From Acidobacteriota bacterium (lineage in GTDB: Bacteria; Acidobacteriota; Terriglobia; Bryobacterales; Bryobacteraceae): 46,315 bases of DNA. The translations under genes and the position numbers were made by a program. Shown here piece after piece: positions 1 to 45,140 of the stretch. A model generated the notes under the pieces. It did no database searches and was not told where the DNA came from. It saw only the letters and a list, made by a program, of their open reading frames with translations. Position 1 is the first letter of the stretch. Every line of letters starts with the position of its first letter. The stretch is from the NCBI GenBank assembly GCA_016213755.1, contig JACQZT010000135.1:1-46315 (forward strand), read 5' to 3'.

Positions 1-2880
1 CGGCGCCAGGGCGGCGGCCGCGTCGCCCCCGGCCTGGTGCAGGCCGCGGCCGACTTCGACGGCGACGGCCGGACGGACCTGGCGGCCGTCTCTCCCGACG
101 GCGTCGTCCATCTGCTGCTGAACCGCACCGCCACTCGCAACCAGTGGATCCGGGTGTCGCTGGAGGGCGTGAAAAACCTCAAGCTGGCGCAGGGCGCGGA
201 GATCGAGGTCAAAGCCGGCGCCGCTTACCAGAAACGGCTTTACGAGGCCCCGGCGGTGGTGTTTGGGCTGGGCGCTTATCGCGAAGCCGACGCGGTGCGC
301 ATCACCTGGCCGAACGGGACCATCCAGAACGAAACGCGCCGTCCCGCCGGCCGCACGGACGCTTATAAGGAGGCGCCCCGCCTGGCGGGTTCCTGCCCCA
401 TGGTCTTCACCTGGAACGGCCGCCGCATGCAGTTCATCACCGACGTGCTGGGCGTCGCGCCGCTGGGCGCCAGCGCGGGCGAGACCGGCTACTTCCCGCT
501 GGATAACGACGAGTACGTGCACGTCCCGCCCGGTGCGCTGGTCCCGCAAAACGGCCGGTATGACGTCCGCATCACCGAGGAACTGCGCGAGGTATCGTAC
601 CTGGACCAGGTGCAACTGGTGGCCGTGGATCGTCCGGCCGGCGACGAGATCTTCACCAACGAGAAGTTCAAGTCGCCGCCCTTTCCGGAGTTTCGCCTGT
701 TCGGCGTGAAGCGCCGTCTCTACCCCGTGCGCGCGACGGATCATCGGGGCCGCGACGTCCTGCAACGGGTGCTGCGCAAGGACCGCGTGTACCCGAGCGC
801 CTTCCGGCGCGACTACGCGGGCGTGGCCGAACTGCACACCCTGGACCTCGACTTCGGTCCCGCCGCCGCGCGCGAAAACCGCGCGCTGCTGGTCCTCGGC
901 GGCTGGGTCGACTGGGCCGACGGCAGCACGTTTCTCGGGGCGGCCCAAACGCCGGGCGGGGGGCTGATTATGCCCTATCTCCAGGTGAAGGACTCGGCCG
1001 GCGCCTGGCAGACTGTGATGAACGACATGGGCATGCCGGCGGGCAAGACCAAGACCATCGTCGTCGACCTGACGGGCAAGTTCCTTTCCGCATCGCGCGA
1101 GGTCCGTATCGTCACCAACCTGTGCGTCTACTGGGACGAGATCTTCCTCAGCGAAGACACGGCGCCGCCCGCGGTGCGCCAGACCACGCTGGACGCCGCC
1201 GAAGCTGGTCTGCGCTTCCGCGGATTCTCGCGCCCCATCGTTCACCCGCGGCGCGAGCAGCCCGAAGAGTTCGATTACGCGCGGGTGTCCCCGGTGTCGC
1301 AGTGGAACCCCACGCCGGGGCTGTACACCCGCTACGGCGACGTGCGCGAACTGGTCGCAACCGTGGACGACCGCTTCGTGATCCTGGGTTCGGGCGACGA
1401 GTTGCATCTGTCCTTCGACGCTGCCGCCTTGCCCCCGCTTCCCGCCGGCTGGGCGCGCGACTTCCTGCTGCGCGTGGACGGCTGGTCGAAAGATGGCGAC
1501 GCCAACACCGCGCATTCCGGCTCGGTCGAGCCGCTGCCCTTCCACGCCATGAGCGGCTACCCCTACCGCGCCTCCGAGCACTACCCCGACGACCACCTCC
1601 ACCGCACTTACCTCGCAACCTACAACACCCGAAAACCGAAACCGGGGACAGTACACTCAATACACCAATTTCGCGCGCGCGGCGCCGGAGAAAATGGTGT
1701 ATTGAGTGTACTGTCCCCGGTTTATGGGCGGGGGGTGGAGAGGTTTCCGGGGGGTGCGGCGCTGAGTAGCGCGCCTCCCGGCTTCTTCGCCTCGGCCGAC
1801 CCCGAGGTTTCCTTCGACGCGGAGCGCCTGTTGTTCGCGGGCAAGAGGCGGAAGGACGACCCCTGGCAGATCTGGGAGATGCCGCTGGCCGGTGGCGCGC
1901 CGCGGCAGATCACCAGGGGCCCGGAGGACTGCATCCGTCCGCTGTACCTGCCGGGCGACGAACTGGTCTACGCGCGGAAGCACGGCGGGGCGTTCCAGAT
2001 CGAAGCCGCGCACTTCTCGGGCGGTGAGCCAACCCGCCTGACCTGGGCGCCCGGCAGCTTCCTGCCCAGCCAGATCCTGCGCGACGGACGGATTCTGTTC
2101 GAAGGCCCCCACCCGGAAAGCGGTACGGATCTCTTCACGATGTTCAGCGACGGCAGCGGCGTCGAGGCCCTGCGCTGCGACCATGGCCCGAGCCGGCGCG
2201 AGGGCCGGCAGTTGGCCTCCGGGGACATCGTCTTCGTCGCCGGCCACGGCCTGGCGCGCATCACGCCGGCGCTCGCGAAAGCGGTTGAGATGCGGTCCCC
2301 GCAGGGAGAGATCGCGGGCCCGGTGGCCGAAATACAGCCCGGAGAGTGGCTGATCTCAATCAAGCCGCCGGGAAGCCCCATCTTCCTTCTGCACCGCTGG
2401 AAACCGGAAAGCTCGGCCCGTCCCGTTGTGGTTGAGCGCTCGCGGTTGAACGCGGTGCAACCGGTGGTGGTGGCTCCGCGGCCCGTACCGCCGATCCATC
2501 CCTCGGGCCTGCACGGCAAGCCCGGAGCAAACCTGCTGTGCCTGAACGCTTACGAATCGCCGCTGAAATTCGCCGCAGGCTCCATCGCCTCGGTCCGCGT
2601 CTATTCGCAGGACGCCCGGGGCGCCGCGGTCAAGCTGGGCGAAGCACCGGTGGAAAGCGACGGATCGTTCTACGTGCAACTGCCCACCGAACGGCCCATT
2701 CGCCTGGAACTGGCGGACCGGCAGGGGCAGCCGCTCGCCGCCGAAAAGGGCTGGTTCTGGATGCGCCACGGAGAGCAGCGAATCTGCGTGGGATGCCACG
2801 CCGGCCCGGAGCGCGCGCCCGAGAACGCCGTGCCCCGGGTGCTGCAACGCTCCGCGGTTCCTGTGAGAATAGAGCCATGA
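1..2880 (+). CDS. FG-GAP/ASPIC_UnbV protein fused to HzsA-like heme c protein (5' partial)
   Basis: The frame is open to the left edge, so the 5' end is missing. The first part has an FG-GAP calcium loop (DFDGDGRTDL) and an ASPIC_UnbV domain (FGLG..., ITWPNGT). A long region follows that ends near YLATYNTRKP, where I would expect a CRTAC1-type protein to stop. After nucleotide 1740 comes a second module resembling the hydrazine synthase alpha-subunit family: WD/TolB-like propeller strands (LLFAGKRRKDDPWQIWEM) and a C-terminal heme c site CVGCH at 2785-2799. A 34-nt-arm palindrome (1639-1723) lies exactly between the two modules, in frame. HzsA-like proteins outside anammox bacteria are common and mostly uncharacterised, so hydrazine chemistry is not implied. 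An exported or cell-surface location is inferred. It overlaps the next gene by ATGA. Confidence 0.8.
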   Translation, partial: RRQGGGRVAPGLVQAAADFDGDGRTDLAAVSPDGVVHLLLNRTATRNQWIRVSLEGVKNLKLAQGAEIEVKAGAAYQKRLYEAPAVVFGLGAYREADAVRITWPNGTIQNETRRPAGRTDAYKEAPRLAGSCPMVFTWNGRRMQFITDVLGVAPLGASAGETGYFPLDNDEYVHVPPGALVPQNGRYDVRITEELREVSYLDQVQLVAVDRPAGDEIFTNEKFKSPPFPEFRLFGVKRRLYPVRATDHRGRDVLQRVLRKDRVYPSAFRRDYAGVAELHTLDLDFGPAAARENRALLVLGGWVDWADGSTFLGAAQTPGGGLIMPYLQVKDSAGAWQTVMNDMGMPAGKTKTIVVDLTGKFLSASREVRIVTNLCVYWDEIFLSEDTAPPAVRQTTLDAAEAGLRFRGFSRPIVHPRREQPEEFDYARVSPVSQWNPTPGLYTRYGDVRELVATVDDRFVILGSGDELHLSFDAAALPPLPAGWARDFLLRVDGWSKDGDANTAHSGSVEPLPFHAMSGYPYRASEHYPDDHLHRTYLATYNTRKPKPGTVHSIHQFRARGAGENGVLSVLSPVYGRGVERFPGGAALSSAPPGFFASADPEVSFDAERLLFAGKRRKDDPWQIWEMPLAGGAPRQITRGPEDCIRPLYLPGDELVYARKHGGAFQIEAAHFSGGEPTRLTWAPGSFLPSQILRDGRILFEGPHPESGTDLFTMFSDGSGVEALRCDHGPSRREGRQLASGDIVFVAGHGLARITPALAKAVEMRSPQGEIAGPVAEIQPGEWLISIKPPGSPIFLLHRWKPESSARPVVVERSRLNAVQPVVVAPRPVPPIHPSGLHGKPGANLLCLNAYESPLKFAAGSIASVRVYSQDARGAAVKLGEAPVESDGSFYVQLPTERPIRLELADRQGQPLAAEKGWFWMRHGEQRICVGCHAGPERAPENAVPRVLQRSAVPVRIEP
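1639..1723. repeat. In-gene palindromic element with CCGGGGACAG ends
   Basis: Two 34-nt arms (1639-1672 and 1690-1723) are reverse complements with one mismatch, around a 17-nt GC-rich loop. Both outer ends read AAACCGGGGACAG pointing inward. The element is translated in frame and sits between two unrelated domains of the surrounding gene. It shares its outer motif with the elements at 7334 and 35590. It looks like a REPIN-type, non-autonomous palindrome. No transposase is present in the window, so mobility is inferred. Confidence 0.85.
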
Positions 2881-4485: not shown

Positions 4486-6300
4486 GTGCCGGGGGCACTG
4501 GCAGTCGCGGCATTGGCGCTGGCGCGGTACTTGAGTCCCATCGAACTGGCGCTCTCGCCCGACGGCACGCGCCTGTACGTGGTCTGCGAAGGCTCGGACG
4601 AGCTGGCGGTGGTGGACCTGGCCACCGACAAGGTGATTCGCCGAGTGCGCGTCGGGCACGTGCCCAAAGGGCTGGCGCTGGCTCCGGACGGCAGGTTCGT
4701 CTACGTGGCGAATTCCTGGAACGACACCGTCTCCGAGATCGACACGGGCGGGCTGGAAGTCAGGCGCACGCTGCCCGCGGGCTACGAACCTACCTGCGTG
4801 GCGACCGACCGCGCGGGGCGAACCCTCTACGCCGCTAATCGCATCGGCGGCGACATCTCGGTGATCGACCTCGCGACCGGCGCCGAGCCGCGCCGCCTCG
4901 CGGCCGGCCGCGGAGCAAGTTACCTGGCGCTCTCGCCCGCCAACGGCCATCTCTACGCCACGCACATTTATCCCAACCCCGGGCCGCACGGCGCGCCGCC
5001 CGAATCCGAAATCACCGTCATCGACGCGCAAGACCAGGTGGTGAGGGAGCGGTTTCGGCTGCCCAACAGCGCGGGCGTCTTCCACCTCGCCTTCTCCGCC
5101 GACGGAAAGCTGGGCCTGGCCTGCCAGTTGCGCCCCAAGAACCTAGTCCCGCTGGCCCACGTGGCGCACGGCTGGGCAATTGGCAACTCCCTCGCGCTTT
5201 TCGGCGAAGAGGTGGGCGAGCCCGTGCACATCCCGCTGGACGAGATCGACCGCTATTTCTCGCTGCCCTTCGGCGTGGCCATCGCTCCGGATAAGCGCTC
5301 GGCCTACGTCACCATGGCGGGTTCCGACAGCGTGACCGTGCTGGATCTCGAGCGGTTGCTGGCACTGGTCCGCCGCCTGTCGCCGAAAGAGCGCGCGCGG
5401 CTGGCCAACGACCTGTCGGCCTCGGCCCAGTACGTGCGCGCGCGCATCCCGGTGGGCGCCAATCCCAAGGGACTGGCGCTCGCGCCCGACGGCGCGCGGC
5501 TGTACGTAGCCAACCGGCTGGACGACAGCATCTCGGTGATTGCGACCGGGCCGGGCAAAGTCGTGCGCACCATCCCGCTGGGCGGGCCGGCCACGCTCAC
5601 GCCCGAACGCCGCGGCGAACGCCTTTTCCACACCGCCCGCTTCTCGTTCCAGGGACAGTTCGGCTGCGCCAGTTGCCATCTCGAGGGGACGCTCGACGGC
5701 CTGACCTGGGACCTGGAGCCGGACGGCTTTGGAATCGATATTGTTGACAACCGCCTCGTCGAAGACGTGACCGAAACCGCTCCCTTCAAGTGGAACGGTG
5801 GCAATCCCGACCTGGAGACCGAGTGCGGGCCGCGCACCGAGAAATACTTCTTCCGCGCTCAAAGCTACTCTCCGACGGAACTGGCCGACCTGGTTCGCTT
5901 CCTGAAATCCATCCCGCCGCGCCCCAATCGCTTCCGCCCCGCCGGCGACGAATTGACATCCAGCCAGGAACGCGGAAAGGCGATCTACGAACGCACCCGC
6001 CGCAAGGACGGAACGCCGGTTCCCGAAGCCATGCAGTGCCCGGTCTGCCACAGCGGCCCGTATTACACCAACCGGCAACTGAGCGATGTGGGCAGCGGCA
6101 AGCCCACCGACCGTTCTCCTTTCTTTGACGTTCCGCAGTTGACTAACATCGCCTTGTCGGCGCCCTACCTGCACGACGGCTCCGCCCGCACCCTGGAAGA
6201 GATCTGGACGGTGTTCAATCCCCGCGACACGCACGGGGTAACCAACGACCTGGCCAAGGACGAACTCAACGACCTGATCGAGTATCTGAAAACGCTATGA
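4486..6300 (+). CDS. YVTN beta-propeller protein with two heme c sites (cytochrome c peroxidase-like C-terminus)
   Basis: The protein has 604 residues and starts at GTG 4486, with GGAGGAGAAG just upstream; earlier in-frame codons lie inside the preceding gene. A short hydrophobic N-terminus suggests export. Residues about 15-365 carry YVTN/NHL-type repeats (LALAPDGRFVYVANSWNDTV, LYVANRLDDSISVI), predicting a beta-propeller. The C-terminal third has two heme c motifs, CASCH (about residue 393) and CPVCH (about 518). With PYLHDGSARTLEEI it resembles di-heme cytochrome c peroxidase/MauG-type proteins. A periplasmic or surface redox role is plausible, but the substrate cannot be read from sequence. 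It is coupled to the next gene by ATGA. Confidence 0.85.
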   Translation: MPGALAVAALALARYLSPIELALSPDGTRLYVVCEGSDELAVVDLATDKVIRRVRVGHVPKGLALAPDGRFVYVANSWNDTVSEIDTGGLEVRRTLPAGYEPTCVATDRAGRTLYAANRIGGDISVIDLATGAEPRRLAAGRGASYLALSPANGHLYATHIYPNPGPHGAPPESEITVIDAQDQVVRERFRLPNSAGVFHLAFSADGKLGLACQLRPKNLVPLAHVAHGWAIGNSLALFGEEVGEPVHIPLDEIDRYFSLPFGVAIAPDKRSAYVTMAGSDSVTVLDLERLLALVRRLSPKERARLANDLSASAQYVRARIPVGANPKGLALAPDGARLYVANRLDDSISVIATGPGKVVRTIPLGGPATLTPERRGERLFHTARFSFQGQFGCASCHLEGTLDGLTWDLEPDGFGIDIVDNRLVEDVTETAPFKWNGGNPDLETECGPRTEKYFFRAQSYSPTELADLVRFLKSIPPRPNRFRPAGDELTSSQERGKAIYERTRRKDGTPVPEAMQCPVCHSGPYYTNRQLSDVGSGKPTDRSPFFDVPQLTNIALSAPYLHDGSARTLEEIWTVFNPRDTHGVTNDLAKDELNDLIEYLKTL

Positions 6301-9083
6301 AACGCGCCGCTGTGCTCTTCTTTGTCGCGCTGTGCGCCGCCGGCCAGCAAATGCCGCGGTACCGTTGGGAGAACTTCACCACCGCCTCGGGGCTCCCCGA
6401 CAACAAGGTTTTCTCCGTCGCGGTGGACGGGGCGCGCATCTGGGCCGGCACTGACAACGGCCTCGGTCTGTACGAGAACGGCAAGTGGAAAGTGTTCCGC
6501 CCCGAAGACGGCCTGGCGCATCGCGCGGTGCTTTCCATCGCCGTGGACAAGAAAACGCGGGACGTCTGGATCGGCACTATGGGCGGCCTGAACCGCTACT
6601 CCGCCGGCCGCTTCGACAGGTTCACGCAGCTCAACAGCGGGTTGAGCAACGACGTCGTGTACGGCGTCGCCGTGCGCGAGGACGAGGTCTGGGCCGCGAC
6701 CGCCGCCGGAGCCAGCCGCTACAACACCCGCACCGGCCAGTGGACGCTCTACAACGAGCGCAACACCCCCATGTACGAGATCTGGACTTACGGCGTGAGT
6801 CCGGGCAAGGACAAGGTCTACTTCGCCGTGTGGGGCGGCGGCCTGCTCGAATACGACGTGAAGACGGACCGCTGGAAGGACTACAACGATCCAGACGGCG
6901 AGACCGAGATCGTGCTCTTCAAAGACCAGGGTCTCATCCACGAGATCACAACCTCAGTGAGTTACATGGAGAGCGACCGTGTGGTGTGGGCCGCCACCTA
7001 CTTCGGCGCCAGCCGTTACGACGGCCGCAACTGGCGCAACTTTCTCGAAAAGGACAGCGGCCTGCCCAGCAACTTCCTGAACCAGGTGAAAGGCGTGGAC
7101 GGCAACCGCGCCTGGTTCTCCACCGACAAGGGGCTGGCCTACTATGACGGAACGAACTGGGCGGTTTACCGTCCCGCGCTCGACACCGGCCGTCCCGAAA
7201 TGCTGGTCCGCGACGCCAGCGGCCGGGTCACTCCCATCGCCGTTGAGTCCGCGCCCGCCCATCACTACGTCTACGCCGTCGACTTCCAGGGAGACGACCT
7301 CTGGGCAGCCACCGCCCAAGGCCTCAGCCACGCAAAACCGGGACAGCCAGACCTGCCCGGGTTTTCGGCGGCGGCGAAGCCGGCTGCGCCGCCCCCGGCG
7401 CAGCGAGTGATGGAGCCGTATGCCGGGACGCCGGAGGATCTGCGCCCCTTCTCGAAGTTCACCAAGCCTTACTACGAGCACTACACCAAGCTCGTCGAGT
7501 ACAACGGCGCGGCGCGCGAGGCGCCCGACCCGGCTCTGGCGGAAATCGAAGAGGTGCGCATCGGCTTCCTCGGGCCGATCGAAAACCATCCGGAACAGGC
7601 CTTGGGCCGGAAGATGCTCAACGGCGCGACGCTGGCGGTGGAAGAGGCCAACCGGGCCGGGGGCTACCGCGGCAAGCCGTTCCGGCTGATGGTGCACAAC
7701 GACCAGGCCGTGTGGGGCTCGTCCAGCAACGAAATCGTCAAAATGGCCTACGACGATAAGGTGTGGGGCATGCTCGGCTCCATCAGCGGCGACTCCACCC
7801 ACATCGCCCTGCGCGTCTCGCTGCGGGCCGAAGTCCCCATGGTCAACAGCGCCGCCACAGATCCCACCATCCCGGAAACCATCATCCCCTGGTATCTCAC
7901 GGTGCTTCAGGACGACCGCGTGCAATGCTACACTCTGGCGCGCCGCATCTACACCGACCTCGGCTTGCAGCGCGTGGCACTGCTGCGCGTCAACGACCGC
8001 TACGGCCGCTTCGGCGTCGTCAAGTTCCGGGACGCCTCGCGCCGGCTGGGCCACCCGGTGGTCATCGAGCAGAAGTACATGCCCGGCGACACGGATTTCG
8101 CGCGCCAGTTGCGCGTGATCAACGACTCGCGCGCGGACGCCATCGTGCTATGGGCCGACGCCGCGCCCGCCGCGGCGATCCTGAAACAGATGCGCGCCCT
8201 GGGCATGAAACAGCGCGTCTTCGGCGGCTTCCGCGTCCTCAACGACGAGCTGCTGAAAACCGCCGGCCCGGCGGCGGACGGGTTGGAAGTGGTCTTCCCC
8301 TACGATCCCGCGCGCCTCGAGCCGGGCTTCCGGCAGCGCTTCGAGGCCCGCTTCCAGGCCGCGCAGGAAGCGTTCGCCTCCCTGGCCTACGACGCCATGA
8401 ACATCCTGCTCGACGCGGTGCGGCGCGCGGGCCTGAACCGCGGCCGCATCCGCGACGCGCTCACCGCTGTCGAGCGCTACCAGGGCGTCACCGGAGCGAT
8501 GACCTTCGATCCCAACTGCAAGAACATCGCGCCCATGTTCCTGGCCACTGTGCGCGACGGGCGCGTCGAGTACCGCCGCTACTCCATGGAAAAGCCCTAT
8601 GCGCGCGTGGGCGAGGACGGCGTGAACTTCCACGGCCCCGCCGCGGCGGACGCACCGGCGGGCGAAACAGCGGTGGTGCTGTTCGGCCCCGGCGCCGATG
8701 TCGATTCGAACCTTCCCTGGGGCCAGGCGACCAACGAACTGGTCAAGCGGATGAGCGACCCGCGCACGCTGGCCGTAATCGCCACCGAGCGCAAGGCCGC
8801 GCACCTTGCGCTCCAGCTTGCGAACAAGTTCTTCCTGCCGGTCCTCGCCCTGACCGACGACCGCACTTTGACCAGCGCCAACATCCCGTGGATTTTCCGC
8901 CTGCCGGCCGGAACTCCGCTGGCGGACGCCCTGCAATGCGTGAAGGAAGCCGCTGCGCGCGCGGGCGCCAACCGCCTGCGCATTCGAGACGCGCTGGCCG
9001 GCTATTCCTTCACCGCGGACTCCTCCTCCCGCAGCGCCACGGCATGCCCAGCGGCGCGCTTCTCGTCGCCGCCGAGTCCGTAG
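6297..9083 (+). CDS. Two-component-regulator-type propeller fused to ABC-type ligand-binding domain
   Basis: The protein has 928 residues and begins with a signal peptide (MKRAAVLFFVALCAAGQ). Residues about 20-345 hold Reg_prop-type propeller repeats (IWAGTDNGLGLYENG, VWIGTMGGLNRYSAG, VWAATYFGASRYDGRNW). Residues about 415-920 resemble the periplasmic binding fold of branched-chain amino acid ABC transporters (Leu/Ile/Val-binding type): VRIGFLGPIENHPEQALG, NGATLAVEEANRAGG, SYDAMN-like ASLAYDAMNILLDAV. A short proline/alanine linker joins them, and a REP-like hairpin (7334-7366) encodes the start of that linker. No permease genes are nearby, so a sensor or receptor role is as likely as transport. 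The last about 27 codons overlap the convergent TPR gene and look non-native. Confidence 0.85.
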   Translation: MKRAAVLFFVALCAAGQQMPRYRWENFTTASGLPDNKVFSVAVDGARIWAGTDNGLGLYENGKWKVFRPEDGLAHRAVLSIAVDKKTRDVWIGTMGGLNRYSAGRFDRFTQLNSGLSNDVVYGVAVREDEVWAATAAGASRYNTRTGQWTLYNERNTPMYEIWTYGVSPGKDKVYFAVWGGGLLEYDVKTDRWKDYNDPDGETEIVLFKDQGLIHEITTSVSYMESDRVVWAATYFGASRYDGRNWRNFLEKDSGLPSNFLNQVKGVDGNRAWFSTDKGLAYYDGTNWAVYRPALDTGRPEMLVRDASGRVTPIAVESAPAHHYVYAVDFQGDDLWAATAQGLSHAKPGQPDLPGFSAAAKPAAPPPAQRVMEPYAGTPEDLRPFSKFTKPYYEHYTKLVEYNGAAREAPDPALAEIEEVRIGFLGPIENHPEQALGRKMLNGATLAVEEANRAGGYRGKPFRLMVHNDQAVWGSSSNEIVKMAYDDKVWGMLGSISGDSTHIALRVSLRAEVPMVNSAATDPTIPETIIPWYLTVLQDDRVQCYTLARRIYTDLGLQRVALLRVNDRYGRFGVVKFRDASRRLGHPVVIEQKYMPGDTDFARQLRVINDSRADAIVLWADAAPAAAILKQMRALGMKQRVFGGFRVLNDELLKTAGPAADGLEVVFPYDPARLEPGFRQRFEARFQAAQEAFASLAYDAMNILLDAVRRAGLNRGRIRDALTAVERYQGVTGAMTFDPNCKNIAPMFLATVRDGRVEYRRYSMEKPYARVGEDGVNFHGPAAADAPAGETAVVLFGPGADVDSNLPWGQATNELVKRMSDPRTLAVIATERKAAHLALQLANKFFLPVLALTDDRTLTSANIPWIFRLPAGTPLADALQCVKEAAARAGANRLRIRDALAGYSFTADSSSRSATACPAARFSSPPSP
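7334..7366 (+). repeat. Single-arm REP-like hairpin inside coding sequence
   Basis: This 33-nt stretch matches the reverse complement of 35620-35652 at 31 of 33 positions (counted by eye). It folds on itself through AAAACCGGG and CCCGGGTTTT with a one-base bulge. It encodes the segment containing KPGQPDLPG, at the junction of the propeller and ligand-binding domains. Only one arm is present, unlike the full inverted pair at 35590. Confidence 0.8.
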
Positions 9084-33763: not shown

Positions 33764-35587
33764 GTGCCCGTTCGGGCTTCGATCTCCATCGGCAGTTCGG
33801 GCCGGCACAAGCCGAGGTTGCACGCCCGTGCGCTCGCCGTTTCCCTGGCGCTACTGTGTTCCGCGCAGGCCCAAACGGTGGTGGTAACCGGAGCGTACGA
33901 GCCCGTGCCTTTGGAGGAGATGGACCGTTCGGTCCGCGTCGTGCCTGCGCGCGAACTGAGCATCCTCACCAACCTGTACGACGACCTGCTGCACCTCGAC
34001 TCGTCGCTCGATCTGCAGCAGCGCGCGCCGGGCGCCATTCAATCCGGTCTTTCCATTCGCGGCGGAACCTTCGGACAGACCCTGGTGCTGCTCAACGGTT
34101 TCCGCATCAACGACGTCCAGAGCGCCAATCACAATCTCGATGTCCCGCTGCCGCCGGATGCCATCGAGCGGATCGAAATCCTGCGCGGATCGGGTTCCAC
34201 GCTGTACGGATCCGACGCCGTCGCCGGCGTGGTGAATCTCAGGATCCGCCCTCCGGAGGTTTCCGAGTTTCGCCTGCGGGCCGGGGCCGGCAATTTCGGC
34301 GTTAATCAGCAGCGCGGATCCTGGACTGTGGCCTCCACGCGCTGGTCCCAGCAGTTCAGTTTTTCGCGCGACTTCTCCTCCGGTTTCCGCGAGAATCGCG
34401 ACTTCCGCAACCTGGCGCTGGCCGGCGTCTCGCGTCTGGCCACTCGCTTGGGAGAAGGCGAGTGGATCCTGGCTCACAACGACCGCCCCTTCGGGGCCGA
34501 CCGTTTCTATGGAAACTTCAACTCCTGGGAGCGCACCCGCACGTGGTTCGCGGGGGTGCGCCAGGCGCTGGGCGGCCGCACGGACGTCTCGTTCGCCTTC
34601 CGCCGCCACACCGACCTGTTCGTGCTGTACCGCGACCGCCCGGAGGTCTTCACCAACCGCCACGCGGTGGAAAGCTACCAGGGCGCGCTGCGGCGCAAGG
34701 AAACGCTGGGCGCCAACGCGCGGCTGCATTACGGCGTCGAAGCCCATCGGGACTCGATCGCCAGCACCAACCTGGGCCGGCACAGCCGGGCGCGCACCGC
34801 CGGCTACGCCGCTCTGGACGTTCGCGCGCTGCGGCGCTTCTCCTTCACACTCGGGGCGCGCGAGGAGGCGTACCGCAACATCCGGCGCGAGTTCAGCCCC
34901 ACCGCCAGCGCCGGCCTGTGGATCTCAGAGCGCTTCAAGTTGCGGGGTTCGGCCAGCCGCGCCTTCCGCCTGCCCACCTTCACCGACCTGTATTACCACG
35001 ACCCGGCCAATCTCGGTTCGCCCGATCTGCGGCCCGAAACAGCTTGGAGCTTCGAGGGCGGCCTGGACTGGAACGCCGGCCCGCGCCTGCGCGGCCAAGC
35101 GGCCGTCTTCCAGCGGCGCGAACGCGACGGCATCGACTATGTGCGTGCAACGCCCGCCGATCTATGGCGCGCCACCAACTTCCGCCGCCTGCGCTTTAGT
35201 GGCGCGGAGATCGCGCTCGAAGCCGGCCTGGCGCGCGGGCAGCGCGTCGAACTGCGCTACACCGCGCTGCGGGGCGTCGGGCGCGCTGGCGGCCTGATGT
35301 CGAAGTACACTTTCAACTACCCGCTGCACACGGGCCTGGCGACCTGGCAGGGAAGCCTGAAGGGCGGCCTGCTCGTTCGCACCCGGCTGGGCGTTGTTCA
35401 GCGCTTCGCGCGCGATCCTTACGCGGTTTGGGATTTCAACTTCGCCTCCAGCCGCGGCCGCCTCCGGCCCTTCGTGCAGTTCAGCAACCTGGCCGGCGCC
35501 CGCTACGAAGAGATCCCTGGCGTGCCCATGCCCGGCCGCGGCGTTCTCGGCGGCGTTCAGATCCTGCTCCTCGGCCCCCTGCGCTAA
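33764..35587 (+). CDS. BtuB-like TonB-dependent receptor
   Basis: The protein has 607 residues from GTG 33764, immediately after the previous stop, with GGGGGA as ribosome site. The signal peptide ends at SAQAQ. TVVVTG is a likely TonB box. The plug is seen in LSIRGGTFGQTLVLLNGFR and IERIEILRGSGSTLYGSDAVAG. The barrel has 20-22 probable strands (ASRAFRLPTFTDLYYHDP, NLGSPDLRPETAWSFEGG). No Phe at the C-terminus. Vitamin B12 or siderophore uptake is the family role, but no cobalamin element precedes it. Its coupling to the polysaccharide operon is unusual. Confidence 0.9.
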   Translation: MPVRASISIGSSGRHKPRLHARALAVSLALLCSAQAQTVVVTGAYEPVPLEEMDRSVRVVPARELSILTNLYDDLLHLDSSLDLQQRAPGAIQSGLSIRGGTFGQTLVLLNGFRINDVQSANHNLDVPLPPDAIERIEILRGSGSTLYGSDAVAGVVNLRIRPPEVSEFRLRAGAGNFGVNQQRGSWTVASTRWSQQFSFSRDFSSGFRENRDFRNLALAGVSRLATRLGEGEWILAHNDRPFGADRFYGNFNSWERTRTWFAGVRQALGGRTDVSFAFRRHTDLFVLYRDRPEVFTNRHAVESYQGALRRKETLGANARLHYGVEAHRDSIASTNLGRHSRARTAGYAALDVRALRRFSFTLGAREEAYRNIRREFSPTASAGLWISERFKLRGSASRAFRLPTFTDLYYHDPANLGSPDLRPETAWSFEGGLDWNAGPRLRGQAAVFQRRERDGIDYVRATPADLWRATNFRRLRFSGAEIALEAGLARGQRVELRYTALRGVGRAGGLMSKYTFNYPLHTGLATWQGSLKGGLLVRTRLGVVQRFARDPYAVWDFNFASSRGRLRPFVQFSNLAGARYEEIPGVPMPGRGVLGGVQILLLGPLR

Positions 35588-35589
35588 GA

Positions 35590-35649
35590 ACGGGGACAGC
35601 CTGACCTACCCGGGTTTTTGAAAACCCGGGTAGGTCAGGCTGTCCCGGT
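35590..35649. repeat. Complete inverted pair of REP-like arms downstream of the TonB receptor
   Basis: Two 30-nt arms (35590-35619 and 35620-35649) are reverse complements with two mismatches and no spacer. Each arm is itself a hairpin through CCGGG and CCCGG. The extended right arm (35620-35652) matches the single arm at 7334-7366 at 31 of 33 positions. It starts 3 bases after the receptor stop, so it may also act as a terminator; T-runs exist at the centre and at the right end. Confidence 0.88.
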
Positions 35650-35701
35650 TTTTGGTGGCGCTGGGGGTGGATCGGGTGCAGAATTGGGGCAGGAGGGTGT
35701 C

Positions 35702-41752: not shown

Positions 41753-44491
41753 ATGAAGAGAATCGTCCTTGCCCTGCTCGCGGCGGGCCTGCCCGCCGTC
41801 CTGTGGCTGGCGCGCCCGTCGGGTCCCCGCTCGGTCGCCGCCGCGGCGCCGCCCAAAGCCGCATTTCTGGTGCGTTTCGGCCTCGACGGCCGGCCGGATA
41901 TCGATTGGAGCGGTAGCCTCGCCGCGCCTGGCGCGCGCCTCTCCGCCTGGCAGTTCGACCCAAAGACGGACCAGCTCGACGGCGCAGCCTGGAAGTGCGC
42001 CACGCGCGGCCAAACCTACTGGGACACGCCCTACGAGCGGCTCATGGGGCCCACCTCGCGGCGCGACAAGGTCACCGGCAAGGGTATCGTGGTGGAACTC
42101 GCCGCTCCTGTGCCGGCGCGGGTCTCCACGCGGCAGGGCGATTTCACTTTCGAATCAAACCTCACGCCGGGCGATGCGCCGCGCCTGTTTCTGGACGGCC
42201 GCGCGTCCGTCCAGGCCCTGCCCGCCGCCACCTGGATCACCCGCGACGCGGACGCCGAGGACTTCCCCTCCCTGCTCGAAACGCGCGACGGTACGCTGTG
42301 GATGGCCTATCAGAGTTACGACGGCAAGGGCGACCGGGTCTATGTTCGCCGCGCAGGCTCCGACCCCGAACCAGTGTCCGAGGCCGGAATCGACTGCTAC
42401 CGCACCGCCCTGGCGCAGGACCGCGCCGGCCGCGTGTGGGTGGTGTGGTCCGCGCAGGTCAACAACAACTTCGATCTCTACGCGCGCGCCTTCGACGGCA
42501 AAGGCTGGTCTCGCATCGAGCGCCTCACCTCGGCCGAGAACCCGGACATCTTTCACACCCTGGCCGCCGATGCCGCGGGCCATCTCTATCTGGCCTGGCA
42601 GAGCGCGCGCTCGGGCAACTTCGACATCTACCTGCGGGTCTTCGACGGTGCCAAATGGGGCCCCGAGATACAAGTTTCCTCGGACGCCGCTCATGACTGG
42701 GAACCCGCCCTCGCCATCGCGCCCGGCGGTGCCGTCACCATCGTCTGGGACACCTACTCCAAAGGCAACTACGACGTGGTCGCGCGCACCTGGCAAAACG
42801 GGCGGCTGGGCGCGCTGACCCAGATCGCCGCCAGCGGCGCTTTTGAAACCCGCGCCTCGGCGCAGTACGACCGGCAGGGCCGCCTCTGGCTCGCCTGGGA
42901 CGAAGGCGACTGGAACTGGGGCAAGGACTACGGCTACCAGATTCCCGAAAGCGGCCGTGGCCTGCTGGTGCGCCGCCAAGTGCGCGTCGCCGTGCTCGAG
43001 AACGGCCGGCTCTCCGAGACCGCCGCGCCGATCTCCGGCGCCGTGCCGGAGGACTTGCGGCAGGTGTTCCAGCACCCCAACCTCGCGCTGGATGCCAACG
43101 GCAACCCGTGGGTCTTCTTCCGCACGCGGGTCAACCTGCCGCAAGGGGAAGGGCGCGGCGCGTTCCGCGCCCTGTGGCGGCTGTGCGGGACCACCTACCG
43201 CGGCGGCCGCTGGTCGCCCATGATGGAATTTCCCGAGGGCTTCGGCCGCATCGACATGGCCGCCGCGACGGCCCTGCGGCGCAATGGCGACATCGCGCTG
43301 GCGTGGGCCTCCGACGGCCGCGTGTGGCCGGCGGGCCGGCCGCTGGATCAGGACCTGCGCCTGGCCACGATCCCATCCGGGCCGGCGGGCGCCGCGCCGA
43401 AGCTGGCCGCCTTCGCTCCGTCCACCGAGAACTTGCCGCCCGCGCATCCGGCCGAGGCGGCCGACATCGCGCGCGTGCGCGCCTACCGTTCGTCCGGTCT
43501 GCGCGTCGTGCGCGGCGACATTCACCGCCACACGGATCTATCCTGGGACGGCAACCGCGACGGCTCGCTCGACGACAGCTACCGCTATGCGATGGATGCC
43601 GCCGGCTTCGACTTTTTGGGCGTGTGCGACCACCAGGCGGGCGAGTCCATCGCCTACAACTGGTGGCGCATTCAGAAGGCCGCGGACTTATACACCATCC
43701 GCGGACGCTTTGCGCCGGTCTATTCCTACGAGCGCAGCCTGAGCTGGCCCAACGGACACCGCAACGTGGTGTTTGCTTTGCGCGGCCGCCCGGTCCTCGA
43801 GATCCCAGAAGCCGAAGCGCGCGGCCAGGAAGGCGCGGCGCGCCTGTATGCCTACCTGCGCCGCTTCGCGGGCGTCACCACTTCGCACACCTCCGCCTCC
43901 GGCATGGGCACCGACTGGCGCGACAGCGACCCCGAACTCGAGCCCGTCGTGGAGCTGTACCAAGGCTATCGCAGCAATTTCGAGACTCCCGGCGCCCCGC
44001 GCGCGCCCACCCGCAAGGAGTCCAGTAAGTTTGCCGCCGGCTTCGTCTGGAACGCCTGGGCCAAGGGTATCAAGATGGGCGTGCAGTCCAGCTCCGACCA
44101 CGTCTCCACCCACATCTCCTACGCCGGCTTCTACGTCGACCGGGTGGACCGCGGCGCCATCGTGGAGGCGATGAAGGCCCGCCACTCCTACGCCGCCACC
44201 GACAACCTCTTCGTCGACCTCCGCATGGGCGAGCACTTCATGGGCGACGCTTTCTCCGCCGCCACCCCACCCCCGCTCACCGCCTTCGTCTCCGGCACGG
44301 GGCCCCTGAAACAGGTGGAGGTCATTCGAAGCAACCGCATCGTCTACACCGCCCCCGGCGCGGGGCGCGAAATGCGCTTCACATACACGGACCGCGAACC
44401 GCCCGCCAGTGAAGTCTGGTACTACGTTCGCGCCGAGCAGCAGGACGGGCAGTTGTGCTGGAGCTCGCCGATTTGGGTGCGGTATCCGTAG
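41753..44491 (+). CDS. Secreted BNR-type propeller fused to DUF3604/PHP-like domain
   Basis: The protein has 912 residues with a signal peptide (MKRIVLALLAAGLPAVLWL). Residues about 160-540 contain Asp-box/BNR-like repeats (LAQDRAGRVWVVWSAQVNN, ADAAGHLYLAWQSARSGNFD, YDRQGRLWLAWDEGDWNW). From about 580 a PHP/DUF3604-like domain starts with RGDIHRHTDLSWDG and includes FDFLGVCDHQAG, SSSDHVSTHIS and AMKARHSYAATDN, giving a set of His/Asp for metal binding. The end resembles an Ig-like strand pair (VWYYVRAEQQDGQLCWSSPI). Metal-dependent hydrolase activity is inferred; the substrate is unknown. Its 3' end is repeated at 45034-45123. Confidence 0.86.
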   Translation: MKRIVLALLAAGLPAVLWLARPSGPRSVAAAAPPKAAFLVRFGLDGRPDIDWSGSLAAPGARLSAWQFDPKTDQLDGAAWKCATRGQTYWDTPYERLMGPTSRRDKVTGKGIVVELAAPVPARVSTRQGDFTFESNLTPGDAPRLFLDGRASVQALPAATWITRDADAEDFPSLLETRDGTLWMAYQSYDGKGDRVYVRRAGSDPEPVSEAGIDCYRTALAQDRAGRVWVVWSAQVNNNFDLYARAFDGKGWSRIERLTSAENPDIFHTLAADAAGHLYLAWQSARSGNFDIYLRVFDGAKWGPEIQVSSDAAHDWEPALAIAPGGAVTIVWDTYSKGNYDVVARTWQNGRLGALTQIAASGAFETRASAQYDRQGRLWLAWDEGDWNWGKDYGYQIPESGRGLLVRRQVRVAVLENGRLSETAAPISGAVPEDLRQVFQHPNLALDANGNPWVFFRTRVNLPQGEGRGAFRALWRLCGTTYRGGRWSPMMEFPEGFGRIDMAAATALRRNGDIALAWASDGRVWPAGRPLDQDLRLATIPSGPAGAAPKLAAFAPSTENLPPAHPAEAADIARVRAYRSSGLRVVRGDIHRHTDLSWDGNRDGSLDDSYRYAMDAAGFDFLGVCDHQAGESIAYNWWRIQKAADLYTIRGRFAPVYSYERSLSWPNGHRNVVFALRGRPVLEIPEAEARGQEGAARLYAYLRRFAGVTTSHTSASGMGTDWRDSDPELEPVVELYQGYRSNFETPGAPRAPTRKESSKFAAGFVWNAWAKGIKMGVQSSSDHVSTHISYAGFYVDRVDRGAIVEAMKARHSYAATDNLFVDLRMGEHFMGDAFSAATPPPLTAFVSGTGPLKQVEVIRSNRIVYTAPGAGREMRFTYTDREPPASEVWYYVRAEQQDGQLCWSSPIWVRYP

Positions 44492-44985: not shown

Positions 44986-45140
44986 TGTACCAGCGCCGGC
45001 CCGAGAAGGCACGATCTCCCCCAGCACGGTCCACGAACCGCCCACCGGCGAGGTCTGGTACTACGTCCGCGCCGAGCAACAGGACGGGCAGTTATGCTGG
45101 TGTTCGCCGATTTGGGTACGGTACAAAGGGCTTGCCGCCG
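44986..45140 (+). pseudogene. Remnant of the 3' end of a second DUF3604-type gene
   Basis: Bases 45034-45123 match 44395-44484 without gaps at 80 of 90 positions (counted by eye). Seven of the ten differences are at third codon positions, so both copies evolved as coding sequence before this one decayed. Weak similarity extends left to about 44990 in the same frame (APAREG... versus APGAGREM...). The stop codon is lost and no start is present. The HicBA module lies between the intact gene and this fragment. Confidence 0.75.

Follow-up and report, generated by a model that had tools for sequence, protein, structure and literature searches.

We observed that two open reading frames in the window, a 46,315-nt stretch of Acidobacteriota DNA from a soil bacterium, each carry a short dispersed palindrome in frame at the joint between two protein domains that relatives encode as separate genes. 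The best account, which we consider likely, is that a REP-like element at a gene junction now joins two former neighbour genes in frame. It builds on several observations: the element family and its bias towards extragenic sites, ancestral genes that are separate, fused frames that stay open, and elements placed at the seams. The fused state was read from one genome of the species, a 5.78-Mb Bryobacteraceae-type MAG in 503 contigs (94% complete, 6.5% estimated contamination), and relatives indicate that this state is derived.

Two fused reading frames and their seams

We compared the arm at 7334-7366 directly with the reverse complement of 35620-35652 and found 31 of 33 positions identical (AAAACCGGGACAGCCAGACCTGCCCGGGTTTTC versus AAAACCGGGACAGCCTGACCTACCCGGGTTTTC), as the original prediction had claimed. 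The two differences, CCT to CCA and CTA to CTG, are both synonymous in frame, although two sites carry little weight. A 24-nt core, searched with up to three mismatches, occurs at three places in the window and in none of 100 dinucleotide shuffles. Since the shuffles gave no match and the genome-wide control patterns 0-1, the similarity is not a chance match. The prediction had described this copy as a second hairpin, which proved wrong: it consists of one arm, and this arm folds weakly on itself (DNA, -8.7 kcal/mol, z -2.9). True long hairpins lie at 35588-35654 (-36.4) and 1636-1726 (-42.7).

The arm encodes approximately residues 346-357 (AKPGQPDLPGF) of the ORF 6297-9083 product. In the predicted model of this protein, which rests on a shallow alignment and has a mean pLDDT of 69, the last propeller strand spans residues 342-348 and a low-confidence stretch spans residues 350-408. 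The arm-encoded residues follow this strand and open the low-confidence stretch, with Peripla_BP_6 (419-755) coming later. This agrees with the claim that the arm encodes the start of a linker between a propeller and an ABC-type binding domain.

Table 1 Coordinates of the fused reading frames, their parts and the repeat elements in the window
Feature	Position	Strand	Remarks
Second fused ORF (FG-GAP/UnbV_ASPIC protein plus HZS_alpha-domain protein)	1..2880	+	5' end cut by contig start; two genes in relatives
Complete family-B hairpin	1639..1723		In frame at second seam, approximately residues 534-562 of P0002
Fused ORF, 928 aa (signal peptide plus two-component-regulator-type propeller (Reg_prop), then Peripla_BP_6)	6297..9083	+	One ORF here, two genes in all relatives checked
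Former upstream gene (propeller)	6297..7333	+	83% identical to sister's separate gene ending ...GLSHGIAVKAE*
Single arm of family-A REP-like element	7334..7366	+	31/33 to 35620-35652; in frame at seam of fused ORF
Former downstream gene (ABC-type binding protein)	7408..9083	+	Without sister's start and signal peptide MSRLSRYLCFSFALAGALAAQ...
Complete family-A inverted pair	35588..35654		Intergenic, directly after TAA of TonB-receptor ORF 33764-35587

In the sister species, the propeller gene has its own stop codon and a separate second gene then starts VTMSRLSRYLCFSFALAGALAAQ..., near the signal-peptide-like MSRLSRYLCFSFALAGALAAQ. Fusion of the propeller to the binding domain was found at none of 87 relative loci and at none of the 58 named loci, with both parts present; the 87 comprise the 58 of a named collection (Bryobacterales, Bryobacteraceae, Candidatus Solibacter and similar) and a remainder that partly overlaps those 58. 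The second gene has a signal-peptide-like start in 43 of the 58 named relatives. The alignment of the fused protein to relatives breaks at residues 346-353, which is on the element. Between the same anchors, the seam measures 74 nt in the window, 33 of them element, versus 142 nt in the sister, so native sequence has been lost. Where the first gene's stop codon, the spacer and the second gene's start codon and signal peptide used to be, there is now the arm, and the frame is open throughout. When compared to the sister, both halves show far fewer nonsynonymous than synonymous differences (pN 0.093/pS 0.689 and pN 0.122/pS 0.559).

The second seam lies in ORF 1-2880, on the same strand and among genes in a row with ORF 6297-9083. 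Its product, P0002, aligns in two parts, residues 3-533 and residues 565-945, which map apart from each other in every genome listing both, and the halves are adjacent separate genes in the sister and two other genomes. The sister's first gene ends ...YNTRRATTGL* and the next begins VKGLSLALTCAVLMLNG...; in the window, an 85-nt hairpin stands between YNTRKP and the conserved FFA..DPEVSFD. As predicted, both intragenic elements of the window are at domain joints, each between two halves.

Near the other end of the window, two 99-nt direct repeats (44386-44484 and 45025-45123, 88% identical) lie at neighbouring ORF ends and probably represent a partial gene duplication.

Repeat families and their genomic placement

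Genome-wide, we found approximately 125 sites among the matches listed, a set that includes two chance-looking ones (L036 and L288) and leaves out up to ~40 one-mismatch family-B arms. The sites belong to three families with a common foot, (AAA)NNGGGGACAG. The ends, or foot, of all three read AAANNGGGGACAG; family A is GGGACAGCCTGAYCTRCCCGGG, family B GGGGACAGTACACTCAA... and family C GGGGACAGACGGAACGYTCCCC. The 21-nt core of family A, with up to three mismatches, occurs at 61 places versus one for the reversed control, and AAACCGGGGACAG, with up to one mismatch, gave 141 matches versus none for its control. This foot, AAACCGGGGACAG, is all that the element at 1639-1723 has in common with the one at 7334, the two stems being of different families. 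Elements are found both as singlets and as inverted pairs, and a short palindrome dispersed in this many copies (~125 sites among the matches listed) is what characterizes REP elements. Other genera of the same family have the same foot on different stems. In the 4.1-Mb genome G125 (genus g44), we counted 146 foot-motif arms, far above its same-genus relatives G044, G098 and G143. The window gave no Rfam match and the family-A pair no match in plasmids. We suspect CTAA to be a target-site preference.

A RAYT-like Y1 transposase gene on contig C312 (L012:1398-2260) has family-C repeats on both sides. It scores 48.6 bits against PF01797 (cut-off 23), and its best NCBIfam model is NF047646 (REP_Tyr_transpos; E 7e-18, below that model's cut-off). 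We found no RAYT-like gene adjoining copies of family A or B, and the association was seen for family C alone. As far as sequence can tell, the element families and the flanked transposase gene have the anatomy of a REP/RAYT system, and the elements are probably mobilised by a transposase of the RAYT type.

Placement was assessed in 100 stretches surrounding sites of families A and B, plus 20 that mainly surround family C, with open frames scored by codon usage. According to this home-made and crude caller, ~92% of the DNA is coding. Among ~123 listed sites, three copies are truly intragenic versus ~113 expected at random, namely the two in the window and C412:5663-5719 (L096). Nearly all copies are extragenic, and many supply or adjoin a neighbour's stop codon. 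For 132 gene ends that face an element, the stop codon was 0-6 nt from the element edge in 49, some of these frames being probably spurious, and some more genes stop inside the element. This mainly extragenic position downstream of genes is also that of REP elements. Because intragenic copies are so few relative to expectation, service as a tolerated linker is a rare outcome for a mostly extragenic element.

At L055, L073, L075, L101 and others, the genes are convergent and each gene has its stop codon in, or next to, one end of the element pair between them (CTAAAACCGGGG ... CCCCGGTTTTAG). Many contigs of G058 and of the genome under study, G000, end inside or beside elements (e.g. L315, L318, L328, L056, L040), which suggests that long hairpins break assemblies. 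Several candidates were rejected. The matches at window 28800, L036:5061 and L113:5026 are chance matches in coding sequence, the residues matched at L409 in the sister (TGDSKSVYENG) look native to the protein, and the read-through calls at L280, the upstream part of L284, L288 and L293 fell on long antisense frames whose translations showed them to be spurious.

The third intragenic copy, a family-B hairpin (L096:4964-5020), stands in place of the linker in a GT-B-type glycosyltransferase, at what would be, for this enzyme family, the junction of the two GT-B halves. Pfam recognised the C-terminal half alone. Between the conserved PHL and FGVFG motifs, relatives have ~27 native residues versus 18-19 element-encoded ones here; since the relatives have a native linker, this is replacement and not common descent of the linker. 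Approximately 100 further sites in six other genomes yielded one copy at a domain joint, a related element that separates CusF_Ec from SCO1-SenC within a single ORF in another genus (L304:3062-3093, G142:C54), and a second copy in a loop close to a C-terminus (L306). No intragenic copies were present in the site samples from the sister and G125.

Intragenic copies are thus at domain joints in four of five cases, L306 being the exception. Under uniform placement within ORFs, finding all three copies of this genome at joints has p ~7e-5, a rough value that assumes joint lengths of 25, 32 and 27 residues. The joint bias by itself does not show targeting, because it would equally be expected if harmless insertions were the ones to survive. 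Judging by these genes and their homologs, the elements mark domain joints, two via gene fusion and one via linker replacement.

The original prediction had proposed a genome-wide search scored against domain borders. The four joints among five copies go in its direction, albeit with few copies (three of ~123 listed sites). Its suggestion that the elements are tolerated as, or generate, linkers held for their position at joints. It was incomplete on the nature of the joints in the window, which are gene-fusion seams and not pre-existing linkers entered by an element: at 7334, all 58 named loci have the halves unfused, and at 1639 the halves map apart in every genome. The prediction had also considered that relatives might encode the same linker by unrelated DNA; we found this for the glycosyltransferase, where the ~27-residue native linker has been replaced.

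Proposed course and alternative readings

REP-like elements usually come to lie just 3' of genes, where they often give or adjoin the stop codon, and a copy would have reached the junction of two co-directional neighbours at 7334. Along with its arrival, the first gene would have lost its stop codon and the second its start and signal peptide, together with the spacer between them, and the stop-free element would allow in-frame reading from one gene into the next. The product would be one exported two-domain protein that uses the signal peptide of the upstream gene, and the element would supply the first part of the linker. At a further junction in this gene cluster, the hairpin at 1639-1723 would have followed the same course. 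Alternatively, a deletion might have joined the genes at an already resident element, rather than an insertion causing the fusion, and we infer the order of the two events. The second gene's export signal is absent from both fused ORFs. For 6297-9083, the upstream signal peptide can in principle replace it, while the start of the other ORF lies beyond the contig. Production and export of the fused proteins are presumed.

An element might instead have entered the existing interdomain linker of a two-domain gene and survived as linkers tolerate extra residues, as for Rickettsia palindromic elements. The glycosyltransferase is consistent with this, as relatives have a single GT-B gene with both halves and the element lies between these halves, and so is the CusF|SCO1 copy in another genus, which also lies between two domains. 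However, no checked relative has a two-domain gene that the elements at 7334 and 1639 could have entered, and even the glycosyltransferase lost its native linker, which is replacement and not plain addition. We regard simple tolerated insertion as improbable.

The seams might also be assembly artefacts, if hairpins or repeated arms misled the assembler and the true spacer was deleted or collapsed. This is a MAG in which several contigs end in or beside elements, so elements do disturb its assembly. Against this, the sequences flanking each seam have their homologues in adjacent genes of the sister, in the same order, which a chimeric join at a repeat would not produce, and the frames are open across 928 and 959 codons. 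The 33-nt single arm at 7334 is, moreover, short for modern k-mer assembly. An artefact is quite improbable in our estimate. It is very improbable that two proteins are still made, with an RNA hairpin functionally ending or blocking the first, the second starting internally and the open frame being incidental: an in-frame GTG ATG lies just past the seam (~7408-7413), a separate second protein without a leader could begin at its ATG (GTGATGGAGCC) and a stop-free element opens the frame between neighbours by chance approximately one time in three, but this second protein would be without its relatives' signal peptide although it is a periplasmic binding protein, and near the 1639 seam the sole in-frame start (GTG) has no signal peptide recognisable by eye after it.

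The reading of the elements as connectors of former neighbour genes bears on how proteins gain domains. Gene fusion is a main source of multidomain proteins, but the seam usually keeps no trace of the physical event. The two seams described here retain a recognisable mobile-type repeat, and many relatives have kept the unfused ancestral state, so that a count of seams across REP-rich genomes would be a direct test of repeat-aided fusion of operon neighbours. It may be that repeats of this kind sometimes link adjacent genes into proteins of two parts. That stop-replacing REP-like elements recurrently fuse co-directional neighbours as ready-made connectors, and so offer a general route from operon neighbours to multidomain proteins, is a tentative extension of which we are doubtful.

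Comparison with known repeat systems

REP and REPIN elements with RAYT transposases, including the GTAG and CGTC superfamilies, have been described (PMC3733652, PMC2817692, PMC3116915), and one group of such transposases is found in Acidobacteria (PMC3733652). Known REPs also lie downstream of genes and often give the stop codon, and intragenic REPs were suggested to sit in flexible linkers (PMC3733652). The elements described here resemble this system in being short imperfect palindromes in dozens of copies, in occurring as singlets and inverted pairs 3' of genes, in contributing stop codons, for family C in the RAYT-like gene flanked by copies, and in their occasional intragenic copies. In contrast to the GTAG and CGTC superfamilies, their ends read AAANNGGGGACAG, without an unpaired GTAG or CGTC tag. 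They also differ in that two intragenic copies are at gene-fusion seams; PMC3733652 has no mention of 'fusion', and a search of open-access text found no report of neighbouring genes fused by a REP. Intragenic copies and their possible role as linkers are already known (PMC3733652, PMC2229807); REPs at the seams of two-gene fusions were not found in the open-access text searched.

Rickettsia palindromic elements, in the second-hand accounts of PMC10969869 and PMC2229807, are described as inserted into existing genes. As with these, a palindrome is read in frame inside a protein gene here. Compared by these second-hand descriptions, the present elements differ in lying between two formerly separate genes with loss of native sequence. 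The enterobacterial ERIC and RU MITEs have been found fused in frame to ORFs, and the discussion there includes them as a way for new proteins and domain fusions to arise (PMC2229807). They too are small repeats that add coding sequence, but they are longer (~100-170 bp), belong to another class, and their fusions mostly join the element to one ORF.
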